This document shows, one piece after another, positions 35,882-37,207 of a stretch of 43,161 nucleotides of DNA. Under the pieces are notes generated by a model that was given only the letters and a program-made list of their open reading frames with translations, was not told the origin of the DNA and searched no databases. The DNA is from Verrucomicrobiaceae bacterium. Lineage in GTDB: Bacteria > Pseudomonadota > Gammaproteobacteria > Pseudomonadales > CAMLJR01. Made by a program: the position numbers and the translations under genes. Within the stretch, counting starts at the first letter, position 1. Each line of letters opens with the position of its first letter. Location of the stretch: NCBI GenBank assembly GCA_028293825.1, contig JAQGNY010000008.1:1-43161 (forward strand), given 5' to 3'.

Positions 35882-36892
35882 TCAGCGCGAAAGCGTCAGA
35901 CCGAGGTAAATCGCATACAGCGCGCCGTTAACCATTAGAGCCCACACACGGATTCCCTGTTGGCGCGAGTTCGCGCGCAGCCACGCCGCCGCCAGCAGCG
36001 TAATGAATATCCCACTCAACACTTCGATGCGCGGCTGCCAGGGCGTCAGCATGATGCCGATCGCAGGCAATAACGTGCCCTGAAATACCATCGCGCCGGT
36101 GATATTGCCGAACGCCAATGTGTCCTTGCCGCGTCGAATCCACAGGATGCTGTTAATTTTTTCCGGTAACTCGGTGGCGATCGGAATAATCAGCAGCGAA
36201 AGCAGCAGCGCGGACACGCCGATCAACTCCGACACGCCTTCGATGCCGTTGATAAAACCTTTCGCGCCATAGACCAGTAACGCCAGTCCAGCCGCCAGTT
36301 GCGCAACAATGGTGAGATAGTTGGTCGGCAATCCGGTGCGCGCGAGCAGCATTTTTTCGCCCGCTTCAGTGCCGTGGCCTTCCTGCACGAGCCGTTTCGA
36401 GGCGCGCAGCGTCAGCGCGATGTAGCCGATGTAGGTCAACACCAGCATGACGCTGATCGCGATGCGATAGATGCGAACATCGCTTGGCATAAACATCGCG
36501 GCGGCCGCGAGCAGAAACGCAAACAGGAAAAAGTGCAGATCGCGATGAAAGCCAGTCGGCTCGGGGGTGATCTGACCGCCCAAGCCACGACGCTTCAAAA
36601 TTGCCAGCGCCATCAGGCAGGTCGACAGTGTCGATAGCATCAGCGGCGCACCGAGGATCGCGCCGACGCCGATTTCTTCATTGGTATTGATGTTGGTAGT
36701 GCCCGCATACAGTGCGAGTAACGGCACCATTGTTTCCGGCAGCGCGGTTCCGACTGCGGCAAAGAGGGAGCCGGTTACGCCTTCCGATATTTTTAGTTTC
36801 TGGCCGAGGTGTTCGAGCGCATTCGTGAATAGCTCGGAGGCGGCGAGGATAATCAGCAGCATCAACAATAGTTGCAGCAAGAGACCGGTCAT
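35882..36892 (-). CDS. CaCA-family cation antiporter, predicted manganese exporter
   Basis: The product is 336 residues from the ATG at 36892 (GAGGT upstream), with about ten hydrophobic segments. The two alpha repeats of the Ca2+:cation antiporter family are visible: AAVGTALPETMVPLLALYAG with IGVGAILGAP in the first half, and IPIATELPEKINSILW with AFGNITGAMVFQG in the second. Both diverge from the classic G-T-S-x-P-E and G-N-x-x-G-S-N patterns, so its ion preference may differ from calcium. The 300-base leader holds a yybP-ykoY riboswitch on the same strand, which answers to Mn2+. I therefore predict Mn2+ export. A longer frame runs into this leader and is not the real start. Confidence 0.85.
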   Translation of the reverse strand: MTGLLLQLLLMLLIILAASELFTNALEHLGQKLKISEGVTGSLFAAVGTALPETMVPLLALYAGTTNINTNEEIGVGAILGAPLMLSTLSTCLMALAILKRRGLGGQITPEPTGFHRDLHFFLFAFLLAAAAMFMPSDVRIYRIAISVMLVLTYIGYIALTLRASKRLVQEGHGTEAGEKMLLARTGLPTNYLTIVAQLAAGLALLVYGAKGFINGIEGVSELIGVSALLLSLLIIPIATELPEKINSILWIRRGKDTLAFGNITGAMVFQGTLLPAIGIMLTPWQPRIEVLSGIFITLLAAAWLRANSRQQGIRVWALMVNGALYAIYLGLTLSR

Positions 36893-36982
36893 TACGAGCA
36901 CCTCGCCGGGACGAAAAGCGGCGCAAGAGATTGTGGGCGGCGGGAGAAAATGGGGCGTGGCGAGATCAAAATAAACTCCGAA

Positions 36983-37026
36983 GGGTTGGACGCGAACCAT
37001 AGACGCAACGCCTGCGCGTCCAACCC
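36983..37026 (-). terminator. Probable expression-platform hairpin of the riboswitch
   Basis: On the minus strand GGGTTGGACGCG (37026-37015) pairs perfectly with CGCGTCCAACCC (36994-36983) around a 20-base loop. It is followed by TTCGGAGTTTATTTT. The loop contains GCGTTGCGTC (37011-37002), which can pair over ten bases, one of them G-U, with GACGCAATGC (37044-37035), the 3' strand of the aptamer's closing stem. Alternative pairings of this kind are expected of a switch. Confidence 0.6.
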
Positions 37027-37039
37027 GGAGCCAAGCATT

Positions 37040-37145
37040 GCGTCAAAAGTCTCGCCAAACCAATCGGTCGATCGCGCCATGGCTGTGGCCAGGTATGTTG
37101 ACGCGGTCTCCTCGGGGCGGAGGAAGGCTACTCCCCAATGACCGC
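37040..37145 (-). promoter_or_regulatory. yybP-ykoY (manganese) riboswitch aptamer
   Basis: Read on the minus strand, the conserved blocks occur in order. GGGGAGTAGCC is at 37136-37126, GTCAACATACC at 37102-37092, and GGCGAGACTTT near 37056-37046. A closing stem GCG(G)TCA/TGACGC joins 37145-37139 to 37045-37040. These are the hallmark sequences of the yybP-ykoY class, which binds Mn2+ at the junction of the two inner loops and usually turns on manganese exporters. It lies 63 bases past the NTF2-like stop and about 150 bases before the antiporter ATG. Confidence 0.88.
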
Positions 37146-37207
37146 CGCAGCTTAGCGTTTTTGCAGCGGCGCGGTCTACCTTCAATCCATCACATTCGTA
37201 CGCCCAA

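Follow-up and report, generated by a model that had tools for sequence, protein, structure and literature searches.

The minus strand of the window, by which we mean the whole 43,161-nucleotide stretch analysed here, carries a candidate yybP-ykoY riboswitch in front of an antiporter gene. Two questions arise from this arrangement: which ion would the antiporter move, and how could the state of the riboswitch reach a gene that begins well downstream of it? A first-pass annotation, made from the letters alone, had answered the first question with a Mn2+ exporter of the CaCA family and had left the second aside.

Identity and parts of the riboswitch

That annotation had placed three signature blocks in order, plus a closing stem, at 37040-37145. 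All of them are present on the minus strand, both in the sequence and in the alignment to the Rfam family RF00080. The RF00080 scan, on which the annotation had made its reading depend, matches 37148-36973 (minus strand) over the full model (1-177) with 80 bits and an E-value of 2.2e-19, against a gathering score of 45. The proposed span holds for the aptamer, which it covers, but the functional unit is longer and reaches the antiporter start at 36892. A chance match can be ruled out by the 80-bit score and because the 43 kb contain just one other Rfam gathering match, a tRNA, and the whole genome (4.34 Mb in 56 contigs) just one other RF00080 match, which lies on contig 9. The locus scores above gathering, possesses the core blocks and the closing P1 stem, and in relatives stands before a metal transporter gene; it is confirmed as a genuine yybP-ykoY riboswitch, a class known to sense manganese. 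Its parts, in the direction of transcription, are the following.

37149..37154, minus strand: -10-like element TAAGCT, position read from the sequence, putative promoter element
36973..37148, minus strand: yybP-ykoY manganese riboswitch (RF00080, covariance model), aptamer to about 37036 and then expression platform
37126..37136, minus strand: first conserved block GGGGAGTAGCC, read from the sequence and agreeing with the Rfam consensus in the alignment
37092..37102, minus strand: second conserved block GTCAACATACC, from sequence and Rfam alignment
37049..37056, minus strand: third conserved block GGCGAGAC, from sequence and Rfam alignment
37035..37044, minus strand: P1 3' strand with extension, GACGCAATGC, able to pair with the P1 5' strand or with 37011-37002
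37015..37026, minus strand: 5' arm of platform hairpin 2, GGGTTGGACGCG, half of a 12-base perfect inverted repeat
37002..37011, minus strand: anti-P1 strand GCGTTGCGTC, alternative partner of the P1 3' strand, from sequence and folding
36983..36994, minus strand: 3' arm of platform hairpin 2, CGCGTCCAACCC, the other half of the 12-base perfect inverted repeat
36976..36980, minus strand: Shine-Dalgarno-like CGGAG at the base of hairpin 2, read from the sequence

We take the first block to be loop L1 and the second to be loop L3. Next after the third block comes TTTTGACG; its TGAC (37045-37042) and the GTCA at 37142-37139 are able to pair and so close P1. The competing pairing of GACGCAATGC with 37011-37002 is present in the minimum-energy folds. 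In the printed leaders of the window's own kind of antiporter (clade A, see below), the platform elements follow in the order P1 3' strand, hairpin 2 5' arm, a strand able to replace the P1 5' strand, and hairpin 2 3' arm. Most of these leaders then have a Shine-Dalgarno-like GGAG or GGAA, as do most printed relatives altogether; it is missing in some, for example L212, L213 and L257.

If the -10-like element is functional, transcription would begin near the P1 5' strand. In several Pseudomonas relatives, TAGAAT occupies the position of this element, and a promoter scan returned no sigma-70 match for the window's element. On the same strand, a 127-aa ORF (37591-37208, minus strand) stops some 60 nt short of the aptamer, and its transcription could therefore run on into the riboswitch. 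Four other aptamers upstream of the antiporter (L035, L092, L113 and L115) contain an insert of about 60-140 nt that follows GGCCC in the loop of the P3 hairpin; L115 reaches 47.0 bits, and the other three score below Rfam gathering.

The contig 9 riboswitch lies directly before a 192-aa gene with the motifs EIGDKTQ and EMGDKTQ, which suggest UPF0016, the family of the MneA exporter. Its platform has the same order of elements, followed by the exporter's own ATG. Another genome, G299, has two equal-scoring RF00080 copies 20 kb apart (C2:152205-152377 and C2:172457-172629, loci L148 and L170), each preceding a UPF0016 gene with identical first 50 residues, as well as a third copy that precedes a different UPF0016 gene. 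A third CaCA type, with a canonical pocket (GTSAPE, GTSLPE, GSN), stands behind RF00080 in L018 and L022 (50.0 and 48.4 bits).

The antiporter and its ion pocket

35882..36892, minus strand: CaCA-superfamily antiporter, 336 aa, predicted Mn2+ exporter (PF01699, predicted fold)

The controlled gene had been read as a CaCA-family antiporter, and PF01699 bears this out, matching with 100 bits (cut-off 24.9) in two stretches; the motifs GTALPE and ATELPE represent the two CaCA repeats. An AlphaFold2 model of the protein has a mean pLDDT of 81.7 and a pTM of 0.80, and is weaker (about 60) at residues 31-50, a stretch holding part of the first motif. Structure comparison of the model returned NCLX (Z 30.5 over 307 residues, 2.8 A), VCX1 (29.8), CAX (28.6) and NCX_Mj (19.2), and Foldseek matched CAX with an E-value of 3.4e-8. 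These CaCA matches span 286-317 residues, nearly the whole protein. The predicted structure accordingly has the CaCA fold, as in CAX, NCX and NCLX. The next Z is 7.3, and no further family is claimed from the rows below the CaCA matches.

Within the superfamily, the protein falls outside the calcium-antiporter equivalogs that we compared. It scores 90.3 against TIGR00367 (calcium/sodium antiporter; NCBIfam cut-off 179.65) and 52.7 against PRK10734, presumably YrbG (cut-off 432). In the motif alignment, A50, A82, L86 and E241 stand where NCX_Mj has S51, S77, N81 and S210; A267 and Q271 correspond to its S236 and D240, which lie beyond the end of the printed alignment at 235. We take these six NCX_Mj residues to be its ion site, and the window antiporter does not have the ion-site residues of an NCX_Mj-type Ca2+/Na+ exchanger. 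The two conserved glutamates, E53 and E244, are retained. Because the printed NCX_Mj alignment pairs opposite halves, the half-to-half equivalence rests on motif order. When the window protein is aligned with 18 relatives, none of the residues named here varies. As read from these motifs, the antiporter is a CaCA member with an altered ion pocket. Such a signature offers a testable basis for the choice of Mn2+ over Ca2+ within one fold.

Databases would label the protein a calcium antiporter, but its actual role is most likely manganese export. One may ask whether it is instead mainly a Ca2+ exporter, or a mixed Ca2+/Mn2+ exporter, with a riboswitch coupled to Ca2+ or to both ions. The protein does belong to a Ca2+ antiporter superfamily, canonical-pocket CaCA genes do occur behind RF00080 in two loci, and the yybP-ykoY aptamer before Streptococcus mgtA is described in the available part of a review as binding Ca2+ more tightly than Mn2+ (PMC9495176). 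However, the window protein and its 18 relatives without exception have Ala, Ala, Leu and Glu in place of the NCX_Mj site residues S51, S77, N81 and S210, and the Bordetella pertussis antiporter BP3410 was, in the accessible text of its report, not induced by calcium, while its loss altered cell Mn (PMC8546581). We therefore consider the calcium reading quite unlikely and keep manganese export as the predicted role.

Conservation of the linkage

The same pairing had been expected in relatives of the antiporter, and many Burkholderiales and some Pseudomonas genomes indeed have the switch upstream. The densest sampling is the family of Pararobbsia silviterrae (Burkholderiales; the genome of locus L039). 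With Infernal's stricter filters, which lose weak matches and were used in the family, order and class scans alike, RF00080 was found in 161 of its 200 genomes; antiporter relatives occur in 72. Sixty-one of the latter are of clade A, the window's kind, and 11 form clade B, about 34% identical, with the motifs GTALPES, GAAMGGPL or GAAIGGPL, ATELPE, and ANISGAMMIQA. The riboswitch lies directly upstream in 55 of the 61 clade A genomes (3 of the 55 at only 24-30 bits) and in all 11 clade B genomes (one at 42.8 bits). Of the six unlinked clade A genomes, four are of 1.1-1.2 Mb and lack a riboswitch match, and two have a split or partial antiporter match; one of these two, G659, was counted as unlinked with the place of its single RF00080 match (E 7.6e-5) not listed.

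More widely, among 194 genomes drawn evenly from the order, 55 have RF00080 and 6 this antiporter; the switch lies just upstream in 3 of the 5 non-self antiporters, all from one genus (85.4, 52.3 and 22.7 bits), and the other two have no upstream riboswitch. The class sample (369 genomes) has the antiporter in 36, the riboswitch in 24 and both in 2, adjacent only in the window's own genome. Among 80 named relatives, 9 have an upstream RF00080 match at gathering level and 2 more have two core motifs below it, which makes 8 Pseudomonas and 3 Burkholderiales; a search with RF00080 and the core motifs found no riboswitch upstream in the other 69. The class sample and these 69 weigh against the efflux unit proposed below. 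Six seed peptides served to collect the 80. As one of them, EKINSILW, does not pick up the variant EKVNSILW, 11 of 80 under-represents Burkholderiales, and the invariance of the EKINSILW motif among them is partly due to selection by the seed. Two Burkholderia records from a plasmid collection also have the riboswitch upstream of the antiporter (66.6 and 67.6 bits).

Some relatives without the riboswitch deserve mention. Loci of Acidithiobacillus, Methylophilaceae, Thiobacillus and Deltaproteobacteria (among L043-L111) have nearly the same pocket motifs, with no upstream RF00080 found. An Enterobacter cloacae plasmid typed as conjugative (L181) carries a clade A antiporter without an upstream riboswitch match, and 238 nt upstream of its annotated start lies a site resembling an MntR box (3 mismatches to the E. 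coli type). On E. coli genes, the MntR consensus used here has 0 mismatches at mntH and 2 at each of two mntP sites. Across 70 upstream regions of riboswitch-less relatives, boxes with at most 3 mismatches occur in one (L181) and with at most 4 in four, against 0.05 and 0.55 expected in simple shuffles. These numbers are only suggestive of MntR control in such relatives.

The genes behind RF00080, named in our locus surveys by short protein motifs and not by family models, are mostly UPF0016 genes. The 55 best-scoring loci of the order and class samples precede 45 UPF0016, 5 CaCA and 5 MntP genes; 36 further loci (8 from the genomes of named loci, 28 from the family) precede 22 UPF0016 and 14 CaCA genes.

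The conserved linkage, together with the precedent of BP3410 as far as its available text describes it (PMC8546581), supports by analogy the reading of the window protein as a CaCA Mn2+ exporter. The single characterised case would thereby be joined by two clades that are annotated as calcium antiporters and carried by many Burkholderiales and some Pseudomonas genomes. As these clades occur in many genomes, many calcium-antiporter annotations could be corrected.

A leader ORF between riboswitch and antiporter

36892..36969, minus strand: leader ORF with TTG start, 25 codons and TAA, the stop overlapping the antiporter ATG (TAATG); C-rich and G-poor

The first-pass annotation made no mention of this reading frame. 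For comparison we assembled 53 rows: the window, the 30 best matches of the Burkholderiales family, 6 further family loci, the 11 riboswitch-positive loci among the 80 relatives, 3 from the order sample and the 2 Burkholderia records. Three repeat genomes were dropped (L237 = L051, L215 = L039, L216 = L052), which leaves 50 leaders; of the 55 riboswitch-linked clade A loci of the family, 36 were read. The leader start was defined as the first ATG or GTG, or else TTG, 4-32 nt past the 3' arm of hairpin 2, and the window was scored through the TTG fallback. Since the hairpin was located by a program, the start codon was not picked by its frame.

In all 46 scored leaders (47 of 47 scorable rows before a repeat was removed), the start codon opens the +1 frame with respect to the antiporter, no stop intervenes, and the ORF ends overlapping the antiporter start, in forms such as ATGA and ATGCTGA, or TAATG in the window. 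Sixteen different leader distances occur, between 44 and 164 nt, and all of them fall in one residue class modulo 3. Shuffled interiors with a random frame gave a mean of 10.6 of 46 and a maximum of 20 (1000 trials, with relatedness ignored). In L236 the start was set 3 bases off, which leaves the frame unaffected. L229 and L115 went unscored, as the hairpin rule failed, yet a leader ORF is visible in both. In L039 and L052 the rule finds no start codon and the platform leads straight into the antiporter start; L052 does have one ORF that begins within the hairpin.

Could the leader simply be the N-terminus of a longer antiporter? A start at ATG 37000 would give an open frame of 372 aa, and frame 0, that of the antiporter, is open in 44 of 49 leader rows. 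Nevertheless, all 46 scored leaders have their first start after the platform in the +1 frame, frame 0 is closed in the remaining 5 rows (2 of them with mis-set boundaries), and in L039 and L052 the antiporter start itself comes directly after the platform. A longer antiporter without a separate leader ORF thus appears very unlikely. The +1 frame is open in 47 of the same 49 rows, being closed only in L113 and L236, both of which, and also L035, had mis-set boundaries. We rejected this openness as sole evidence for a leader ORF, since frame 0 is open nearly as often; the separate leader ORF is argued for by the position and frame of its start and end.

The encoded peptide is a different matter. 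Over 44 leader pairs, differences at codon positions 1, 2 and 3 number 61, 96 and 86, and 148 nonsynonymous stand against 52 synonymous codons; changes are not biased towards the third position. Conservation of a leader peptide was therefore rejected, and what is left is a frame without a peptide. Because selection appears to keep the frame while the peptide drifts, these comparisons suggest that the passage of ribosomes is the function of the leader.

Composition may indicate what the passage is for. C exceeds G in 45 of the 46 leader ORFs, with a median C/G of 2.7, against 0.93 in the aptamer; in the first antiporter codons, C exceeds G in 41 of 46 (median 1.29). The C/G of the window's best leader stretch is reached by only 32 of 43,083 minus-strand windows of 78 nt, which overlap and include that stretch itself. 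A C-rich, G-poor composition is that of Rho-loading sites. By analogy with E. coli mntP, translating ribosomes probably shield a Rho site in the leader. A parallel leader ORF guarding against Rho is mgtL before mgtA.

A Rho-independent alternative would turn hairpin 2 (37026-36983, extended by CTCC/GGAG) and the following TTTATTTT into a Mn-controlled intrinsic terminator and make the leader ORF incidental. In the window, the TTTATTTT tract does come directly after hairpin 2. The printed leaders of relatives have no comparable tract there (four T at most), however, and most have a Shine-Dalgarno-like site and a start codon instead. The conservation of the leader-ORF frame would also go unexplained. 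A terminator scan found none, with a loop limit of 8 that would miss hairpin 2. Intrinsic termination is on this evidence unlikely, and ribosome passage through a Rho-sensitive leader remains our preferred reading.

In clade B, a laxer rule finds an ORF in 7 of 11 leaders (in 5 its start falls within the platform) and none in the remaining 4; only 4 of 67 UPF0016 riboswitch leaders have one, by a Shine-Dalgarno-based rule that differs from the rule for CaCA leaders. The E. coli K-12 mntP leader has a 13-codon ORF ending on the mntP ATG. In the window, the leader start, TTG, is a weak one. Translational coupling of the leader ORF to the antiporter, which the overlap would allow, need not be strict, as the antiporter has its own GAGG before the ATG.

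A conserved, sequence-free leader ORF between a Mn riboswitch and its exporter looks new. The literature matches listed, which leave the subscription literature mostly outside and are weak evidence of absence, include none that describes a leader ORF behind a yybP-ykoY riboswitch.

Proposed mechanism and direction of regulation

Taken together, the locus may be read as a Mn2+ efflux unit. Mn2+ would be sensed by the RF00080 aptamer with which the transcript begins. As the P1 3' strand is common to P1 and the downstream alternative helix, Mn2+ binding would decide whether the Shine-Dalgarno at 36980-36976 can be used. This site would serve the 25-codon leader ORF and not the antiporter itself. 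Ribosomes finishing the leader would re-initiate on the antiporter at the overlapping stop and start, a case of translational coupling, and the leader peptide would be thrown away, its open frame being what counts. Meanwhile, the C-rich, G-poor leader, probably a Rho-loading stretch, would be covered by the translating ribosomes. At low Mn2+, the leader would stay untranslated, transcription would end early, and no transporter would be made; otherwise, the CaCA antiporter with the altered pocket would export Mn2+. We consider this whole unit of aptamer, leader coupling, probable Rho step and CaCA Mn2+ export to be likely. Observed were the riboswitch match, the conservation of both its linkage and the leader-ORF frame, and the altered pocket motifs. 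Mn2+ binding, the ON direction, coupling, Rho and the Mn2+ substrate we infer.

The ON direction deserves scrutiny, as the opposite has some support. If Mn2+ switched the gene off, the antiporter would import Mn2+ or another ion. Mn riboswitches are termed 'OFF' switches in the accessible part of a review (PMC11477304), and the alternative helices, read literally, fit that label. Folding with P1 forced or forbidden gave a mean unpaired probability of the window's Shine-Dalgarno of 0.19 with P1 and 0.40 without. Across 16 leaders, accessibility with P1 is lower in 12, equal in one (L032) and higher in three (L035, L039 and L001), the MneA copy of the window's genome being among the three (0.22 with P1 and 0.06 without). 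Equilibrium folding of these 16 leaders thus gives no support for ON and at face value leans the other way. That MneA copy, however, shares the platform order with the window and has the freer Shine-Dalgarno with P1. Moreover, the available texts of the respective reports describe V. parahaemolyticus mneA as Mn-induced (PMC13274385), E. coli mntP as Mn-ON (PMC11647493) and BP3410 as Mn-induced (PMC8546581). We set folding aside as evidence on direction and argue for a Mn-ON switch by analogy with these three genes; a switch that turns an importer off is in our view highly improbable.

A wider generalisation can be offered tentatively, at slightly less than even chances: that Mn2+ riboswitches before CaCA exporters and before E. 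coli mntP share one layout, and that clades A and B are a group of Mn2+ exporters. The aptamer would license a sequence-free leader ORF over a Rho-loading stretch instead of the exporter's own ribosome site, ribosomes would escort the polymerase past Rho and hand over at the overlapping stop and start, and the two clades would be marked by the extra Glu (ATELPE) in the ion pocket.

Comparison with known systems

The prediction of a CaCA Mn2+ exporter behind this riboswitch is not novel: its proven precedent is BP3410 (PMC8546581). A 2026 paper, in its available text, also lists V. vulnificus yrbG among the genes under a yybP-ykoY riboswitch in a RegPrecise-based analysis (PMC13274385). Capek and colleagues showed that the Bordetella pertussis antiporter BP3410, a CaCA member whose gene lies behind a yybP-ykoY riboswitch, acts as a Mn-induced Mn exporter. 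According to the accessible part of their paper, an aptamer mutant loses Mn induction, functional BP3410 lowers cell Mn about 5-fold, and calcium leaves expression unaffected (data not shown there) (PMC8546581). BP3410 and the window antiporter are alike in being CaCA antiporters directly behind an RF00080-type riboswitch. They differ in that the BP3410 copy is reported, in the same available text, as inactive in most B. pertussis strains, whereas the window reading frame is open (PMC8546581).

NCX_Mj and the bacterial Ca2+/Na+ antiporters (TIGR00367, YrbG) share the fold and the two GTxxPE-like motifs with the window antiporter, which differs from them by scoring below the equivalog cut-offs and by its ion-pocket residues. 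The UPF0016/GDT1 (MneA) genes behind RF00080 share the aptamer class and the platform order, even within the same genome, but belong to another transporter family and usually have no leader ORF.

E. coli mntP is like the window locus in having a yybP-ykoY riboswitch and a short ORF ending on the exporter's ATG, and unlike it in that MntP represents another exporter family. There, Rho terminates in the riboswitch region and Mn partly restores transcription-translation coupling; the main text of that report, in the part available, contains no mention of a uORF, upstream ORF or leader peptide (PMC11647493). The conserved leader ORF of the window and its relatives predicts how a translational riboswitch may act on a gene that begins some 80 bases further along, and the similar ORF in the E. 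coli mntP leader opens this layout to direct testing there.
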